A stretch of 64,000 bases of DNA from positions 1 through 64,000 of the forward strand of contig CAMYLR010000031.1 of the NCBI GenBank assembly GCA_947259315.1, in the 5' to 3' direction. The notes beneath the pieces are model-generated. The model worked only from the letters and a program-made list of their open reading frames with translations, did not search any database and had not been told where the DNA came from. Shown here piece by piece: positions 10,051 through 20,313 of the stretch. The position numbers were made by a program, and so were the translations under genes. The stretch is from an uncultured Gemmatimonadales bacterium (GTDB taxonomy: Bacteria > Gemmatimonadota > Gemmatimonadetes > JACCXV01 > JAHWKZ01). Position 1 is the stretch's first letter. Every line of letters begins with the position of its first letter.

Positions 10051-12123
10051 ATGGATACTCATCAGCACCGCCTGACCGCACTCTGGTTCGCCGACATCGT
10101 CGGGTATAGCGAGCTCGCCGATAAGGACGAGGGCCAAGCCCTGCGTCTGGTCGACGTGCTCCAGACGATCGCTCACTCGACCGCCGAACGATTCGAAGGT
10201 CGAGTCGTGAAGTTTCTGGGCGACGGCGTCCTGGCGGAGTTCTCGAGCACCGAATCTGCGGTTCGGGCCGCGGTGGCACTCCAACACAACTATCACGAAC
10301 GCATTGAGTCCGCGACCGGTGAGGTGCGGCCGCTGCGGGTCGGCGTGCATGTCGGAGACGTTGTCGCGGAGCCCGACGGCGATGTGTACGGCGACGGGGT
10401 AAACGTGGCTGCACGGTTGCAACACGAGGCCGAGGCGGGGCAAGTCGTGGTCAGCGAGGACGTGTGGCGACAGTTGCGACAACGGCCGGAGATCGGGTTT
10501 ACGCTGCTGGGCGAGCGTACGCTTAAGGGTATCGCCAGACCGGTCGTCGTGTACGCAGTCGATGTCGAGTTAACCGCGGCGGAGTTGTCGGGTCGTCCCC
10601 CCGCCGCCCACGCTCACGAGCATCGCAGCCGCAATCTGGCGCTGCTTGGGACCGGCATGCTGATCGCTATCGTCGTTTTGGGTTTGGCCACCGGTTACCT
10701 CGGGCGCGACGGCGAACCCGGCACCCAGCCAACCGCCGCCGACGCCACGGGCGAGGAATTCTATCGATCGGTCGCCGTCTTGCCGTTCGTGAATCTGAGC
10801 CGCGGTGAGGCGGAAAACTATTTCGGTGATGGTGTGACCGAGGATCTGATCGCACGCTTGGCCAAAGTCCCACGCCTCAAGGTGATCAGCCGAACCTCGG
10901 TCATGCAGTACAAGGACACCGACAAAAACCTGCGGCAGATCGGCGCGGAGTTGGGCGCGACAGCGATTCTCGAGGGCAGCGTGCGTCATTCAGGCGACGA
11001 GGTTCGGATCGTGGCCCAGTTGATCGACGTCGAAACCGACACCCACCTTTGGGCCGAGACATACGATCGTGGGATGGCCGATATCTTCGACATTCAGAGC
11101 GATGTCGCCGAGCAGATCGCGACCGCGCTCGAAGCGACGATCAGCGTCGCCCAGCACGACATGATGGTAGCCGCGCCCACCGACGATCTAGAAGCGTACC
11201 AGCTCTACTTGCAAGGACGGTTCTTCTGGAATAAGCGCACGGCCGACGATTTTGCACGCGCGATCGAACTGTACGAGCGGGCGATCGAGCGCGACCCCGA
11301 GTTCGCACTAGCCTACGCGGGGTTGGCGGAGACGTTCGTCATCCTACCCCACTACTCTGACGTGACGGCCAACGAGGCGAACTCAAGGGCACGAGCGGTG
11401 GCCACAAGAGCGCTGGAGTTGGACGCGAAACTGGGCGAGGCTCACGCCGCGCTGGCGCACGTGGATTGGCACCAACTTGAGTGGGAGGCCGGCGAGCAGG
11501 GGTTCCTGCGGGCGATCGAGTTGAGCCCCGGAAACGCCACCGTCCATCAGTGGTACGCCGACTATCTGGCGTCAATGGCGAGGTTTGACGAAGCCCGTGC
11601 TCGCATGAACCACGCTCACGCGCTCGATCCCTTGTCCAACATCATCAACACCGAACTTGGGTGGCTGTCGTTTTTTGAGCGCCGCTACGATGAGGCGATT
11701 GAGCAATTCGAGAAAGTGATCGCCTTCGATCCCGAGTTCCCGCAAGTGTATCTGTACCTCGGTTGGGCGTACGAGCTCACCGATCGGTATCCGGAGGCGA
11801 TTGAAGCGTACCGAACAATGGCTCGCGTGCAGGGACGCGACCCGAACGCGCTCGATGGGTTTGACGCCGCATGGCGCGAAGGGGGCGAACGCGGGTACTG
11901 GAAGGCACGGAAGGAGTTCGCCGACCGGCCGGGCGGCCCGTTTATGTCCCGCGCGTCGACCCGCGCGATGTTGGGCGATGTGGATGGAGCGTTCGAGGCC
12001 ATTGACCAGATGTACGCTGAGCGGGAGATCGACATGGTCTACTCGAAGGTAACTCCATACTGGGAACCGTTGCGTTCCGATCCGCGATACGCGGAGCTGC
12101 TCGAGAAGATGGGGTTGGACTGA
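10051..12123 (+). CDS. Class III cyclase fused to TolB-like domain and TPR repeats
   Basis: Residues 5-170 are a class III cyclase domain with metal Asp15 (WFADIVGYS) and Asp58 (KFLGDGVLAEF) plus GVHVGDV..GDVYGDGVNVAARLQ. A transmembrane helix lies at about 196-215. A TolB-N/FlgO-like domain follows (about 243-345: SVAVLPFVNLS, DGVTEDLIARL, VISRTSVMQYK, AILEGSVR, THLWAETYDR), then TPR repeats from about 390 to 680 (e.g. AIELYERAIERDPEFALAYA). This is a 690-residue signalling protein whose periplasmic module may gate cytosolic cyclic nucleotide synthesis. Paralogous to 42534-44837 over its full length and to 4349-5542 in the cyclase domain. Confidence 0.88.
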   Translation: MDTHQHRLTALWFADIVGYSELADKDEGQALRLVDVLQTIAHSTAERFEGRVVKFLGDGVLAEFSSTESAVRAAVALQHNYHERIESATGEVRPLRVGVHVGDVVAEPDGDVYGDGVNVAARLQHEAEAGQVVVSEDVWRQLRQRPEIGFTLLGERTLKGIARPVVVYAVDVELTAAELSGRPPAAHAHEHRSRNLALLGTGMLIAIVVLGLATGYLGRDGEPGTQPTAADATGEEFYRSVAVLPFVNLSRGEAENYFGDGVTEDLIARLAKVPRLKVISRTSVMQYKDTDKNLRQIGAELGATAILEGSVRHSGDEVRIVAQLIDVETDTHLWAETYDRGMADIFDIQSDVAEQIATALEATISVAQHDMMVAAPTDDLEAYQLYLQGRFFWNKRTADDFARAIELYERAIERDPEFALAYAGLAETFVILPHYSDVTANEANSRARAVATRALELDAKLGEAHAALAHVDWHQLEWEAGEQGFLRAIELSPGNATVHQWYADYLASMARFDEARARMNHAHALDPLSNIINTELGWLSFFERRYDEAIEQFEKVIAFDPEFPQVYLYLGWAYELTDRYPEAIEAYRTMARVQGRDPNALDGFDAAWREGGERGYWKARKEFADRPGGPFMSRASTRAMLGDVDGAFEAIDQMYAEREIDMVYSKVTPYWEPLRSDPRYAELLEKMGLD

Positions 12124-12771: not shown

Positions 12772-13164
12772 TCACACCGGCGCGAAGACGAAGCGCCGCT
12801 GGAGCCGGAAGTTTGCGATCGTCACCGCACCCAGGACCGCGATCCAGGTCGGCGTCGCCGGCCATCCGAGAAGGTCGACGCCGACGCCGAGAGCCGTCGA
12901 ACTCACGCCCAGCAACGCAAGCTGGACCCCGCCGAAGCGGGCGAAGGAATCGGCGACCGGCGTCGAGGAGCGGAAGGTCCAGCTCCGGTTCCAGGCAAAG
13001 CTCCAGGCGATTCCGGCGCTGTAGGCGAGCGCCTGCGCGATCGTCGCACGCGCTACGAAGCCGTCGAACAACCCCAGACAGAGCCGGAAGACGGTGAAGC
13101 TCAGCAGCGTGTTGCTCGCGCCGACCAGGAGGAAGCGGGCGATTTCTCCCTGGGAGCGGCTCAT
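12772..13164 (-). CDS. GtrA-like flippase family membrane protein
   Basis: A 130-residue protein with four transmembrane helices and the GtrA pattern: FLLVGASNTLLSF near the start, then AQALAYSAGIAWSFAWNRSWTFRS (the conserved N+WTF block), LALLGVSSTALGV, and ANFRLQRRFVF at the end. GtrA proteins are proposed to flip polyprenyl-phosphate-linked sugars across the inner membrane. Start ATG 13164 overlaps the GtrB-like gene stop (ATGA). It is the last gene of a four-gene minus-strand unit with the polyserine lipoprotein, the giant GT-C-like protein and the glycosyltransferase. Confidence 0.85.
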   Translation of the reverse strand: MSRSQGEIARFLLVGASNTLLSFTVFRLCLGLFDGFVARATIAQALAYSAGIAWSFAWNRSWTFRSSTPVADSFARFGGVQLALLGVSSTALGVGVDLLGWPATPTWIAVLGAVTIANFRLQRRFVFAPV

Positions 13165-14141
13165 CCCGCTTCCAGGTGCCAGGCGGCGCGTGCCGCGCCC
13201 CCGGTCTCGCGCCCGACGACGTAGAGCGGTCGGTTCCGGACCGCTTCGTGGACGCTCGCAAGGTAGGTACCGAGGATACCGAGCAGGAGGAAGAGGATTC
13301 CGAACATGAACGACACCACCGTCAGCACCGACGCCCAGCCCGGAACTGTCTCGCCGCGCGCGTATTGGACCACGATGTAACCGATCTCGGCGAAGGCGAA
13401 GACACCGGTCGCCGCCGCCGCCCAAGTGCCGAGACGCAGCGGCAACGTGGTGAACGACACCAGGCCCCGGACCGAGAGTCGGATCATTTTGCCGAGCGTG
13501 AACTTCGAGCGTCCCGCGTGTCGGGGACGCGCCCTGTAGGCGATCGTCGCGCTTGGCGCGCCCAGCCAGTGGATCATCCCACGTAGGAAGGGCTCGGGGT
13601 CGCGGAGACGGAGCAGCGTCTCGAGGACCGCAGCGTCGACAAGGCGAAAGTCCGAGGTTCCCGGGGGCACGTCGAATCCGGCGAGCTTCGAGAAGACCCA
13701 GTAGAAGCCGCGCGACGTCAGCCGCTTGAGTAGCCCAGTGTCATCGGCGTCGAGGCGACTGGTGTGGACGACCTTGGCGCCGTTCCTCCAAGCCTCGAGC
13801 AGACGGGGGATCAGCGCGGGCGGGTGCTGCAGGTCGCCGTCCATGGTGATCACGGCGCGCCCGGAGGCGTACGCGAGCCCGGCGAGGAGCGCGTGCTGGT
13901 GACCGAAGTTGCGGAGCAGCGAGATGCCGCGGACCGACGGCTGCCACCGCTCGAGCGCGGCGATCTGCTCCCAGGTCCGGTCCGAGCTGCCGTCGTCGAC
14001 CAGCACGATCTCGAAGGACGAGACCAGCGGGTGCAACACGGCGACGAGCTCGGTCACGAAGCGATTGACGTTCGCCTCTTCGTTGAACAGTGGCGCCACG
14101 ATCGAGATCTCGAGGCGTTCGCGTTTGCTAAACCCGTTCAT
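13161..14141 (-). CDS. Family 2 glycosyltransferase, GtrB/DPM-like polyprenyl-phosphate sugar synthase
   Basis: A 326-residue GT-A enzyme: SIVAPLFNEEANV, FEIVLVDDGSSDRTWE, LLRNFGHQHALLAGL, ITMDGDLQHPP (metal DxD-like), SDFRLVDAAV, RHAGRSKFTLGKM, then two C-terminal transmembrane helices (about 232-255 and 267-292). This is the organisation of GtrB/ArnC-type enzymes, which move a sugar from a nucleotide donor to undecaprenyl phosphate on the cytosolic face. Start ATG 14141 (CAGGAG upstream) lies 14 bases inside the preceding gene. Pairing with GtrA and a GT-C-like protein points to export of a lipid-linked sugar for transfer outside. Confidence 0.88.
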   Translation of the reverse strand: MNGFSKRERLEISIVAPLFNEEANVNRFVTELVAVLHPLVSSFEIVLVDDGSSDRTWEQIAALERWQPSVRGISLLRNFGHQHALLAGLAYASGRAVITMDGDLQHPPALIPRLLEAWRNGAKVVHTSRLDADDTGLLKRLTSRGFYWVFSKLAGFDVPPGTSDFRLVDAAVLETLLRLRDPEPFLRGMIHWLGAPSATIAYRARPRHAGRSKFTLGKMIRLSVRGLVSFTTLPLRLGTWAAAATGVFAFAEIGYIVVQYARGETVPGWASVLTVVSFMFGILFLLLGILGTYLASVHEAVRNRPLYVVGRETGGAARAAWHLEAG

Positions 14142-17100
14142 CGTCGTTGTCTCCTGTCTCGAGCTGTGCGATCTCGGTGAGGCGCTCGGTGGCACGGGCT
14201 GCCCATTCGGATTCCGGGAAATGTTTGGTGACGGCGCGGAAAGCGAGCCGAGCCGCGGCGCGATCGTCCGAGTTCCGGCGGCAGAGCCCGACGTGGTACC
14301 GGGCCTCGGCGTGGTAAGGCGACTCCGGGTACTCCTCGATCATCTTCTCGAACCGGTCCGCCGCCTCGCTCCATCGCTCCAACCGATAGGTGCTGAGCGC
14401 GCGATAGAAGCTGGCGTGGACTGCCGCCGAGGAGAGTGGCCCGGCGTCGATCGCCCGCCCGAGCTCCCGGGAGGCCTCCTCGAAGCGTTCCTGCTTGTAG
14501 AGCTCCAGGCCCTTCTCATAGAGCAGCGGAGGGAAGGAGTCGCCGATTCCGGCCGTTGCCGTCCACGCGATCGCCGCTGCCCCGACGAGCAGGGTGGAGC
14601 GCCAGGCGAGGCTCGCGCCGGAGTGCGCGGGCGGCTCCCCGCCTGACATGGGCGTCCGACGTCGCCGGCGCACCCCGCCGACAGCGAAGATGAGGACGAC
14701 GGCGAGGCCGAAGAGCGTGGACCCATGGCCCAGTTGCACCAGCGGCGGGTCGCCAAACTCGAGCACGACCTCGGGGCCCTTCGGAACGACGAGCATGAAG
14801 CCGGGAGAGGCGAGGTAGATCCTCTCGCCGGTGCGCGCTCGCCAGCGCGGGTGGTAAGAGACCTTTATTAGTAGGGGATGACCCGGCTGGTCGGTGCGGA
14901 TCGTGATCCGGTGCGGTTCGATCGATTCCTCGATCCCGATGGTGCCGGGGTCGAGTGGGTGACCCTCCACGCGCGCCGGAAGTCGGTCGAGCGGCGGGCC
15001 GAAGCGCGCCCGGTCCTCGGAGTCCGGGCTGCGTCGCCAGACGAGCACCGTGCGGCTCGATCCCGGACGCTTGAACCAGCGGAAGTAGGCGCTCTTCCAA
15101 TCGTCGGTACCGAGCAGGACCGGCGCGGTCTCGAGTGGCACGACGTAGCGGCCGTCACTACCGCGCACGCGATGGATCTCGTAGGGGGGAACCTCCGACT
15201 CGAGCTGGTATTGGTCGGATTTGCGCAGCGCGGTGCGAACCGCGGCGCTGCGAGCCACGACGCGGTCGACGTTGAACTGACGTAGGTGCTCGGCGGCCCG
15301 CTCGGGGTCCAAACGTGCGCAGTGGTAGTCGGGCAGCGGACACGAGGTGACCTCGGAGATCTCCGACTGCAGGTAGAAGATCTCGGGGGTCACCAGCGAG
15401 GACTGGATGTATAGACCCTCGAGTGTCGAGCGACCGGAGAACAACGGCAGCGACTCGAAAGCGCGGATCGATCCGGCCGCGTTGTGAGCCGGCGTGTGCT
15501 CGAAGACGACGCGCGGATCGGTCTCGTCCCCCGCCAGCGTGCGCTGAACCTCCGAGTACGCGTTCCACAGCGGCTTGCGCTCGAAGCCGGAGTAGTTCCA
15601 GCGCATCCACTGCGGGACGAAACCGAGGTGCGCGCCGCACCAGAGCAGCGTCACTCCCACCACGAGCCAAGTCGATGCCGGAATCGGCTGGACCCGGCGT
15701 GCGACGACGCCGAGAGCCGGCGCCGCCGCCAACGCGACGAGCAGCTGCACGGGCGGGAGGAAGCGGACGTCGACCGCACCCAGAAGCGGCGTAAGCCGAT
15801 AGAGCAGAAGGCCGGCGCAGCCGGCCCCGACCAGTGTCGCAACTCGCGCCGGGACCACGAAAGACCGCTTCGAGCTGGCCCGGAGCCGGATGAGAGTGGT
15901 GGCTGCCGCGATCATGGAAACCGCCACTAGCGGGAGGAGGATCGGCGGCAGCACCTCGGGCCAGGAAGAGATACGCCAAAGGTCTCGGTAGGGCGACGTG
16001 AACTCGGCGTAGCCGAGCAGCGGGAGGATCCAGAACCCGATCAGCGCGAAAGCCAGGCCATACATCCGCACCAGGTAGCCGATGTTGCGCCGAAATCCGG
16101 GGAGCCAGAGCAGGTGGGCGGCCGAAAACGCGCCGGCGAGTAGCAGCGCGTACGCGTGCGCGAGCGCTATCAGGGCGAGCAGGATTGCGTTGACCACCAG
16201 TAGGCGGCGCTCGACCAACCCGCGAAATGACGTGCCTAGAAAGAGGATCGCGAGCGAGAGACCGAGCGAATACGAGAACTCGCCAGCCAGCGTGCTCGGC
16301 AGGTTCCCGCCGAACACGGTGTTGGTATCGATGAGGAGAAAAGGCAGAGCGAGGACGGCCGCGATCGCCGGTGTGGGGCGCCGGAAGCCGAGCGTGCGGA
16401 AGCCAAAGTATGCGCAGAGCGGAAGCAGAAAGCTGCCGAGCAGAGTGACGAGCTTGAAGCCGACCGCGAGCCCGACCAGGGGCGCAAACACCGCCATGAC
16501 GAGAAACGGCAGCGGGAAGTAGAGCTGGAAGATCGGGTAGCCCGCAAGGTTTCCCGGCATCCAGCCGAGCAGCCGGCCCTCCGGAAGCAGTGTCTCGACC
16601 AGGTACCTGGCGGTCAGCATGTGCGAGGCCGTGTCGCCGCCGGCCGCGGTGGTCGGCGCGAGCAGCAAGTCGATCGGAACGAGGGTCGCAAGGAAAAGAA
16701 GTACCGCGGCGAGAACGCTGACATCGAGAAGCATGCCCCCGTCGTGTCCGGCTTCCGGTGTTGCGACGGTTCGGAGCCGGCGCGTCGCGATCCAACCGGC
16801 GAGGACGACCAGGAGCGCCACGAGAGCCGGACGGATGCGCTCGGCGGCGAGCGGAGGCAGCTCGAGACGGACCGTCGTGGGCACGAAATGCGCGTCCCGC
16901 GAATCGGCCGAGCGGGTCTCAACGAGTGCGAGGATCTCGTACGCGCTGCCGGGAAACCCGGAGACGTTCTCGATGCGGAACGACGCTTCCGCTCTGCCGT
17001 CGGCGTCGGGGTGCAGACGTGCCACCGAGGAGCCGACGACACCGAGCTCGGTGGGGAGAATCAGCCGAACCGTCACCGGATCGGTGATCTGTGCGATCTC

Positions 17101-17586
17101 TTGGACATGGATCGTGGTCCTCGCGTCGCCGCCGCGAAGGACGATCGAGTCGAGGGTCGCGTCGAGGTCAAGGCTCCGACGGGTACCAGATTCGAGGAGT
17201 CCCCAGGAGAGCGCCGAGAGTGGGTAGCCGCCCTCGTCCTGGTAGCCGACCCGAACGACGATCGGGGTGCGTCCGGGTCGGAGCCGTTCCGGTTCGACGT
17301 GGATGTCAAAAGTCCAGGTCTCTCCGGGGGCGAGCTTGGCGTGGATTCCGGCGCGCTCGGTCCAACCACCGACCTCGACATCGGCGGTCAGCTCGAGCGC
17401 CTCCTCGTCGCCCCGATTCGAGACCTCGACCTCGCAGCGCGCCACGGCGGGGCCGGTCTCGCACCGGGTGCGCACGTCGAGCGTAATCGTTCCCGCCCAC
17501 GCCGACGGAGCGACGAGGGCGCTAATCAGGAGAAAAGCGAGCGGCGGGCGCAACGCACGAGTTGGCCGTGGCCCGCCGGCGCTCAT
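14128..17586 (-). CDS. Giant GT-C-like membrane protein with N-terminal beta domain and C-terminal TPRs
   Basis: A 1152-residue protein. After a signal-like start (MSAGG.. to APSAWA) come one or two beta-rich extracellular domains of CARDB-like pattern (about 33-245: VEVSNRGDEEALELTADVEVGGW). From about 255 to 640 there are around 10 or more transmembrane helices of the PTPS-related/GT-C type, with a likely catalytic Asp318 in the first loop (AAGGDTASHM). A periplasmic segment follows (about 640-960), a further helix, then TPR repeats (about 1025-1145: ALSTYRLERWSEAADRFEKM). I infer a lipid-sugar-dependent glycosyltransferase. It overlaps the polyserine lipoprotein gene upstream and the GtrB-like gene downstream. 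Confidence 0.72.
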   Translation of the reverse strand: MSAGGPRPTRALRPPLAFLLISALVAPSAWAGTITLDVRTRCETGPAVARCEVEVSNRGDEEALELTADVEVGGWTERAGIHAKLAPGETWTFDIHVEPERLRPGRTPIVVRVGYQDEGGYPLSALSWGLLESGTRRSLDLDATLDSIVLRGGDARTTIHVQEIAQITDPVTVRLILPTELGVVGSSVARLHPDADGRAEASFRIENVSGFPGSAYEILALVETRSADSRDAHFVPTTVRLELPPLAAERIRPALVALLVVLAGWIATRRLRTVATPEAGHDGGMLLDVSVLAAVLLFLATLVPIDLLLAPTTAAGGDTASHMLTARYLVETLLPEGRLLGWMPGNLAGYPIFQLYFPLPFLVMAVFAPLVGLAVGFKLVTLLGSFLLPLCAYFGFRTLGFRRPTPAIAAVLALPFLLIDTNTVFGGNLPSTLAGEFSYSLGLSLAILFLGTSFRGLVERRLLVVNAILLALIALAHAYALLLAGAFSAAHLLWLPGFRRNIGYLVRMYGLAFALIGFWILPLLGYAEFTSPYRDLWRISSWPEVLPPILLPLVAVSMIAAATTLIRLRASSKRSFVVPARVATLVGAGCAGLLLYRLTPLLGAVDVRFLPPVQLLVALAAAPALGVVARRVQPIPASTWLVVGVTLLWCGAHLGFVPQWMRWNYSGFERKPLWNAYSEVQRTLAGDETDPRVVFEHTPAHNAAGSIRAFESLPLFSGRSTLEGLYIQSSLVTPEIFYLQSEISEVTSCPLPDYHCARLDPERAAEHLRQFNVDRVVARSAAVRTALRKSDQYQLESEVPPYEIHRVRGSDGRYVVPLETAPVLLGTDDWKSAYFRWFKRPGSSRTVLVWRRSPDSEDRARFGPPLDRLPARVEGHPLDPGTIGIEESIEPHRITIRTDQPGHPLLIKVSYHPRWRARTGERIYLASPGFMLVVPKGPEVVLEFGDPPLVQLGHGSTLFGLAVVLIFAVGGVRRRRRTPMSGGEPPAHSGASLAWRSTLLVGAAAIAWTATAGIGDSFPPLLYEKGLELYKQERFEEASRELGRAIDAGPLSSAAVHASFYRALSTYRLERWSEAADRFEKMIEEYPESPYHAEARYHVGLCRRNSDDRAAARLAFRAVTKHFPESEWAARATERLTEIAQLETGDNDDERV

Positions 17587-17876
17587 GTCGTCGAGGAGCT
17601 GGAGCTGCTCGACGTGCTGGAGCTAGAGCTCGAACTAGAGCTAGAGCTGCTCGAACTGGAGCTAGAGCTGGAGCTCGAACTGGAGCTAGAGCTGGAGCTC
17701 GAACTGGAGCTAGAGCTGCTCGAACTAGAGCTAGAGCTGGAACTCGAGCTCGAAGTGGGGCTGGTGTTCGCGTTGGGGTCGGTCGGACTGGCCGAATCGC
17801 AGCCCCCGACCAGCAGCCCAGCACCGAGGCAGAGAACCCCGGAGACGAGCCCAACGTGACGTCTAAGCCGTTTCAT
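17583..17876 (-). CDS. Polyserine-tailed lipoprotein
   Basis: A 97-residue lipoprotein: signal MKRLRRHVGLVSGVLCLGAG plus LLVGGC, lipidation at Cys26. A short spacer (DSASPTDPNANTSPT) is followed by residues 42-97, of which about 53 are Ser and the last two Thr. The mature protein is therefore almost entirely a Ser/Thr tract. ATG 17876 has a good ribosome site (GAGAGAGG), and the TGA stop overlaps the start of the GT-C-like gene, so the two are translationally coupled. I infer a surface linker or an acceptor for O-glycosylation by the neighbouring GtrA/GtrB/GT-C-like proteins. The opposite strand also has an open frame (Glu-Leu repeat), which I reject. Confidence 0.75.
   Translation of the reverse strand: MKRLRRHVGLVSGVLCLGAGLLVGGCDSASPTDPNANTSPTSSSSSSSSSSSSSSSSSSSSSSSSSSSSSSSSSSSSSSSSSSSSSSTSSSSSSSTT
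17592..17753. repeat. Degenerate tandem repeat encoding polyserine
   Basis: The stretch consists of alternating near-copies of a roughly 24-base unit (CTCGAACTGGAGCTAGAGCT plus GGAG on the plus strand), at least three nearly exact copies from about 17650 on, built from AGC, TCG, AGT, TCC and TCT serine codons on the minus strand. Mixed codons with a fixed amino acid imply selection on serine. Length is probably unstable by slippage. Confidence 0.8.
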
Positions 17877-20058: not shown

Positions 20059-20313
20059 ATGAACAGGACACTCGGTCGAGTAACGTTGTTTGTCGTGGCG
20101 ATCACGCTCGGGTTGTCGTGCGGCGATTCGAGCACCCCGACCGCGCCGCCGGAGGGTCTCGAAGACCACACCGTTCGCCGCGGTGGGGCGTTTCACGGCG
20201 CGGGTCTCAACGACCCCGAGCAGAATTGCGTGCAGTGTCATGGCGCCGACTTGCGCGGCGGCGATAACGGTGAGCCGTCGTGTTTTCTATGCCACGGAGA
20301 GGTGTGGAACTAG
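20059..20313 (+). CDS. Mini c-type cytochrome lipoprotein with two CxxCH motifs
   Basis: An 84-residue protein with signal MNRTLGRVTLFVVAITLGLS and lipidation Cys21 (LSC). The mature part has two haem c motifs only 15 or so residues apart, NCVQCHGADLRGG and SCFLCHGEVWN, the second almost at the C-terminus. This resembles very small cytochrome c fragments such as those seen in photosynthetic/respiratory accessory lipoproteins; distal ligands cannot be assigned. Its role is likely periplasmic electron transfer, or a zinc-ribbon-like metal site if haem is not attached. It is the last gene of the glycosylase-BKACE-CMD series. Confidence 0.75.
   Translation: MNRTLGRVTLFVVAITLGLSCGDSSTPTAPPEGLEDHTVRRGGAFHGAGLNDPEQNCVQCHGADLRGGDNGEPSCFLCHGEVWN

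Follow-up and report, generated by a model that had tools for sequence, protein, structure and literature searches.

Operon organization and the polyserine lipoprotein

The window analysed here, a 64,000-nucleotide stretch of contig CAMYLR010000031.1, comes from the 2.4-Mb genome of an uncultured member of the Gemmatimonadota. A sequence-only reading had placed four overlapping minus-strand genes at 12772-17876, and all four are present there (Table 1). In the order lipoprotein, GT-C, GtrB and GtrA, successive genes overlap by 4 nt (ATGA), 14 nt and 4 nt (ATGA). A promoter scan gave nothing above chance.

Table 1. Coordinates of the window operon and of features in the window and in homologous loci
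Feature	Position	Strand	Remarks
Polyserine lipoprotein P0001, 97 aa	17583..17876	minus	signal peptide, lipobox C26, 15-residue spacer, 46-Ser run
46 uninterrupted Ser codons	17616..17753	minus	TCN/AGY alternation in 43/45 steps; variation at wobble positions only
GT-C glycosyltransferase P0002, 1152 aa	14128..17586	minus	signal peptide, predicted periplasmic Ig-like region, PF10131 membrane core, C-terminal TPRs, invariant D318
GtrB/PgfS-like polyprenyl-phosphate glycosyltransferase P0003, GT2, 326 aa	13161..14141	minus	two C-terminal hydrophobic segments
GtrA-type flippase candidate P0004, 130 aa	12772..13164	minus	PF04138
Adenylate/guanylate cyclase with TPRs	10051-12123	plus	PF00211
Small lipoprotein-like protein	20059-20313	plus	CVQCH, CFLCH
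Pilin-like protein with 47 Thr (G416)	L178 7568-8332		reverse-complement orientation; = L190 1320-2084 (minus)
Pseudopilin-like protein (G298)	L136 1-789	minus	contig end
GT-C with low-complexity insert	L090 7842-11552		Desulfobacteraceae
Radical SAM-like protein, ~452 aa	L092 6267-7625		
	L094 10192-11550		
	L131 8407-9765		
	L132 9719-11077		
	L135 10235-11596		

The first product, P0001, contains 57 Ser and 6 Thr in 97 amino acids. Like bacterial lipoproteins, it has a signal peptide with a lipobox cysteine (LLVGG followed by C26); the signal sequence, as read from the protein, runs KRLRRH..VGLVSGVLCLGAGLLVGG up to C26, with a hydrophobic segment at 8-26. The C-terminus consists of 46 serines and then TSSSSSSSTT, and no domain follows the tail. 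No IPTL-CTERM C-terminal signal was found on P0001 (0 NCBIfam families). An RBS-like GAGAGAGG precedes the ORF. Because of this element, the signal peptide, the lipobox and the stop/start overlap, we rejected an antisense artefact; we also rejected a frameshifted N-terminus of the GT-C gene, since that gene encodes a signal peptide of its own.

The DNA of the serine run is a degenerate tandem hexamer array, so slippage is its probable origin. Across 22 TCN-AGY units no non-wobble base deviates (88/88), and all the variation is at the wobble bases (T8/G7/C7 and C16/T6). None of these differences changes an amino acid, although higher-order duplication makes them partly non-independent. Since only the wobble bases vary freely, it looks as if the protein sequence of the run, and not the DNA repeat alone, has been maintained. 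The alternating Ser-codon pattern is unique to this locus in the 2.4 Mb scanned.

In the carbohydrases of Saccharophagus degradans polyserine joins domains, whereas the serine run of P0001 ends the protein and shares an operon with a transferase. These exported enzymes nevertheless establish that long polyserine linkers exist in bacteria (PMC3124978). Such linkers, and the tandem nature of the array, are what one would expect if the tail were a by-product of hexanucleotide repeat expansion that served at most as a flexible tether, its adjacency to the GT-C gene being accidental and the polythreonine association described below reflecting shared ancestry. The restriction of the variation in the serine run to wobble positions speaks against this explanation, to which we return with the genome surveys.

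Families and conserved residues of the predicted glycosylation proteins

P0002 matches PF10131 (PTPS_related, GT-C clan) with 142.5 bits against a Pfam cut-off of 26.4, and has Pfam TPR matches at 1021-1140. P0003 matches PF00535 (95.3 bits) and P0004 matches PF04138 (76.1 bits), so that one overlapping operon brings together a GT2 polyprenyl-phosphate synthase, a GtrA flippase and a GT-C protein by family assignment. A sequence search of solved structures (PDB) with the GT-C alignment returned no match.

Six residues of P0002, D318, H477, R608, W519, G435 and F437, are invariant in the alignment of all 32 GT-C homologues. The sequence-only reading had singled out Asp318 and made its proposal depend on conserved active-site residues, a point that has held. 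D318 lies in the loop just past the hydrophobic segment 291-309, the first core transmembrane segment, a position that matches that of the catalytic Asp in GT-C enzymes (PMC11127046, PMC7801869).

Overlooked by that reading was a secreted N-terminal region of about 220 residues (approximately 32-250), which we call Ig-like from its sequence. Similar regions are found in homologous loci, either fused to the GT-C protein or encoded by a separate upstream gene. Since the signal peptide would be cleaved, this part of P0002 is expected to be periplasmic. The TPRs are likewise predicted to be periplasmic, given segment 954-972 and a second, less strongly hydrophobic stretch at about 990-1007 (read by eye). 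The Desulfobacteraceae GT-C of L090 carries a low-complexity VDRVERVDRVEAVDTVEGG insert within its Ig-like region, apparently through DNA repeat expansion.

Homologous GT-C loci

A contig search with P0002 as the lone query found no match, and when the window's class was searched with PF10131 most matches were weak and partial. A profile built from P0002 and one distant homologue (a two-sequence alignment) recovered nine loci, four of them from Methylomirabilota, with GT-C sequence as the sole criterion. A homologue from the window's own class is CP070829.1. The GT-C is carried by just 2 of 395 Gemmatimonadota genomes, which makes the window locus look horizontally acquired.

Whether homologous loci have Ser/Thr-rich neighbours had been put forward as a check on the acceptor idea, which withstands it. 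A protein with a Ser or Thr homopolymer lies within 10 kb of the GT-C gene in 16 of the 32 loci with readable neighbourhoods; the count leaves out G445, where a mixed TTSSSSSTTSTT protein adjoins the GT-C. The other 16 (L161, L090, L093, L096 and L097 among them) have no tract in the region read, and the enzyme therefore need not sit beside an acceptor. The homologous tracts all consist wholly or predominantly of Thr; a tract of pure Ser is so far known from the window alone.

GtrB and GtrA genes accompany the GT-C in one other locus only, L161, in the same GT-C/GtrB/GtrA order (its GtrB is 46% and its GtrA 39% identical to those of the window). Methylomirabilota and several Desulfobacterota have a shorter DPM1-like GT2 nearby in their place. 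The operon itself holds no sugar-nucleotide genes. For both reasons, the description of the locus as self-contained, offered by the sequence-only reading, is unproven.

L161 lacks a Ser/Thr neighbour, as do several other homologous loci, and the characterised three-component systems modify O-antigen or cell-wall polymers (PMC11127046). These facts would suit a GtrA/GtrB/GT-C trio that decorates a polysaccharide or glycolipid, the lipoprotein being an unglycosylated tether or a bystander. No polysaccharide operon was found around the window genes, however, and the surveys of two phyla described below bear on this explanation too.

In one group of Desulfobacterota (L172, L173, L175 and L177) a GT-C with an Ig-like region lies downstream of SMC in a conserved neighbourhood, and in three of the four a ribonuclease G-like gene is also found upstream of the GT-C.

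Co-occurrence of the GT-C with threonine tracts

The genomes of two phyla were scanned for runs of at least 12 Thr codons. Profile search found the GT-C in 9 of 95 Methylomirabilota genomes, and a Thr run occurs in the same nine and no others, at one place each, 191-263 bp upstream of the GT-C (Fisher p 8.5e-13, from counts that ignore relatedness). In the first four Methylomirabilota loci the gene directly upstream of the GT-C encodes, without exception, an exported protein in which 14-19 threonines follow one another. These four proteins have an IPTL-CTERM tail (TIGR04174), above the cut-off in three and below it in one, and exosortase H is encoded near the GT-C in L092 and L094. By BLASTP, the N-terminal domains of the L091 and L092 proteins are unrelated and the similarity is limited to the tail and the Thr run, which indicates that the element kept next to the GT-C in this phylum is the tract plus its anchor. 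A conserved protein of about 452 residues, resembling B12-binding radical SAM proteins, is encoded 3' of the GT-C in several Methylomirabilota loci (Table 1).

Among 395 Desulfobacterota genomes, 21 carry the GT-C. Thr runs were detected in 13 genomes, namely 12 of the 21 with the GT-C versus 1 of the 374 lacking it (Fisher p 1.5e-16, relatedness again being ignored); nine GT-C-bearing genomes lack a run of that length. The sole GT-C-negative genome with the pattern is G443, where the match proved to lie out of frame in the gene of a secreted repeat protein rich in Asp/Asn. The 12 remaining tracts are all in frame, most of them in proteins with an evident export signal, and their scaffolds are FecR-type (four with a Pfam match), pilin-like with 47 Thr, lipoprotein-like and others. 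The distance between tract and GT-C is 0.2-8 kb in 6 of the 12 genomes. A looser WSN-codon pattern for mixed Ser/Thr runs matched in 54 of 80 genomes, mostly in out-of-frame coding DNA, and was not used as evidence.

Taken together, the scaffolds of the proposed acceptors are lipoprotein, IPTL-CTERM, FecR and pilin-like, and they have in common only a Ser/Thr tract and export. In the GT-C tree, most of the deep branches include tract-bearing genomes. This spread, the replicate in a second phylum and the unrelated scaffolds disfavour a single-clade explanation. Nor is the polythreonine link a mere exosortase effect: the scaffolds in G416, G481, G428 and G781 are FecR or pilin-like, not IPTL-CTERM.

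The repeat by-product explanation gains from association counts that ignore relatedness. It does not predict an association that recurs in two phyla, across most deep GT-C branches and with unrelated scaffolds, nor the close linkage in half of the tract-bearing Desulfobacterota, and we regard it as very improbable. Co-occurrence and linkage of Ser/Thr homopolymers with the GT-C in two phyla would also be unexpected for a polysaccharide enzyme; that explanation is unlikely, if less so than an accidental repeat.

Several of the tract proteins deserve mention in their own right. In G416 (Desulfobacterota) the gene immediately upstream of the GT-C encodes the type-IV-pilin-like protein with its 47-threonine run. 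Polythreonine scaffolds of the FecR type, their long C-terminal tails rich in Thr, are found repeatedly in Desulfobacterota (L183, L184, L185, L186, L187 and L188). In the Magnetococcales genome G298 the sole long polythreonine tract belongs to a pseudopilin-like protein encoded at a contig end, where it is not seen beside the GT-C of that genome.

Relation to known glycosylation systems

Among systems that have been tested, Pgf of Streptococcus mutans (PgfS, PgfM1, PgfE and PgfM2; substrates Cnm and WapA) comes closest; there, cnm is co-transcribed with pgfS and pgfM1 (PMC5856776). The earlier remark was that protein substrates in GtrA/GtrB/GT-C trios are little described; for this related system they are known. 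The two share a GtrB-like membrane GT2, a multi-spanning GT-C-type protein and a Thr/Ser-rich exported substrate encoded alongside, as seen for P0001 and in homologous loci. In NCBIfam P0003 matches PgfS best, but its 205.5 bits fall short of the cut-off of 500, so P0003 is not a PgfS equivalog. Unlike Pgf, the window operon has a PF10131 GT-C with Ig-like and TPR parts, includes GtrA, lacks an epimerase, and would use as acceptor a pure-Ser lipoprotein of the Gram-negative type.

Several membrane proteins cooperate in Pgf. Likewise, the tail of P0001 might be glycosylated by another enzyme of the genome, the operon GT-C extending the glycan or having some other substrate; the window genome has seven further GT2 matches to P0003, and some polythreonine proteins are unlinked to the GT-C. 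Against this, it is this GT-C that tracks the tracts in two phyla (in a survey that took in this GT-C only), and we consider the involvement of another enzyme the least probable of the three alternatives.

GtrA/GtrB/Gtr systems (O-antigen glucosylation; GT136 ribofuranosylation) resemble the window operon in combining a polyprenyl-phosphate sugar synthase, a flippase and a GT-C (PMC11127046). Their known acceptors are polysaccharides, whereas a co-translated protein is proposed here. P0002, with PF10131 and TPRs, also recalls the human protein O-mannosyltransferases TMTC1-4 (GT105) and TMEM260, GT-C proteins for whose extracytoplasmic C-terminal TPRs a role in recruiting the acceptor protein has been proposed (PMC7801869, PMC11292533). 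By Pfam these belong to another GT-C family, and their targets are folded Ig-like domains, not homopolymers; a Pfam search of P0002 to E 0.1 did not find DUF1736, the TMTC-specific loop domain. Finally, the proposed Methylomirabilota acceptors are IPTL-CTERM/exosortase H proteins with a Thr run beside the GT-C, whereas the window lipoprotein has a lipobox and no such tail. Within open-licence PMC papers, the scope of our literature search, nothing was found that connects a bacterial GT-C with tracts of threonine or serine.

Proposed mechanism and implications

We think it probable that the operon is a periplasmic O-glycosylation unit whose GT-C/TPR transferase modifies the serine tail via a polyprenyl-phosphate sugar, and that its GT-C clade acts generally on Ser or Thr runs of exported proteins, whatever their anchor. 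GtrB would move the sugar from a nucleotide sugar to polyprenyl phosphate and GtrA would carry the lipid-linked sugar to the periplasmic face. There the GT-C, with Asp318 as the catalytic residue, would transfer it to serine hydroxyls in the tail of the co-translated lipoprotein, which is probably bound or held by the Ig-like and TPR domains. The product would be a lipid-anchored, mucin-like glycoprotein. What we observe directly is which genes are there, their overlaps and families, the conserved residue, and the linkage and co-occurrence with Ser/Thr homopolymer proteins; we infer the reaction, the sugar, the localisation and the role of the tail as acceptor.

The idea that the lipoprotein is the acceptor of its co-translated transferase, already put forward by the sequence-only reading, is thus a prediction with strong comparative support. 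It is favoured by the translational overlap of acceptor and enzyme genes, co-occurrence in two phyla, the occurrence of Ser/Thr neighbours in half of the readable loci and on unrelated scaffolds, the invariance of D318, H477 and R608, the retention of Ser despite wobble divergence, and the precedents of Pgf and the TPR-bearing GT-C proteins. It is weakened by the half of the loci without a tract, the nine Desulfobacterota without a Thr run, the uniqueness of the Ser tract and the rarity of GtrB/GtrA.

The sharing of an operon by a polyserine lipoprotein and a predicted transferase, and the co-occurrence of GT-C relatives with all-threonine proteins, often adjoining, suggest that bacteria have a counterpart of mucin glycosylation that has yet to be described. 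With rather less confidence, we lean towards a broader view in which this clade, present in several phyla and in many cases bearing TPRs, is a general bacterial mucin-type O-glycosyltransferase that recognises Thr/Ser homopolymers. Any exported protein gaining a tract would then become a surface protein with dense glycosylation, and lineages without the enzyme would lose their tracts.

If so, the GT-C proteins of a group still unassigned (PF10131, frequently TPR-bearing) would acquire a function, and the presence of pure Thr or Ser proteins in some bacteria and their absence from others would be explained. Substrates and modification sites could be predicted from sequence, including those of the methane-oxidising Methylomirabilis. 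Bacteria would then have a system comparable to the protein O-mannosyltransferases with TPRs found in animals, and engineered glycosylation could use a stretch of Ser or Thr as a simple tag.

Other genes of the window

Near the downstream end of the operon lies a gene for an adenylate/guanylate cyclase with TPRs, which has no evident link to it. Elsewhere in the window, a small lipoprotein-like protein has two CxxCH motifs and may bind haem (Table 1).
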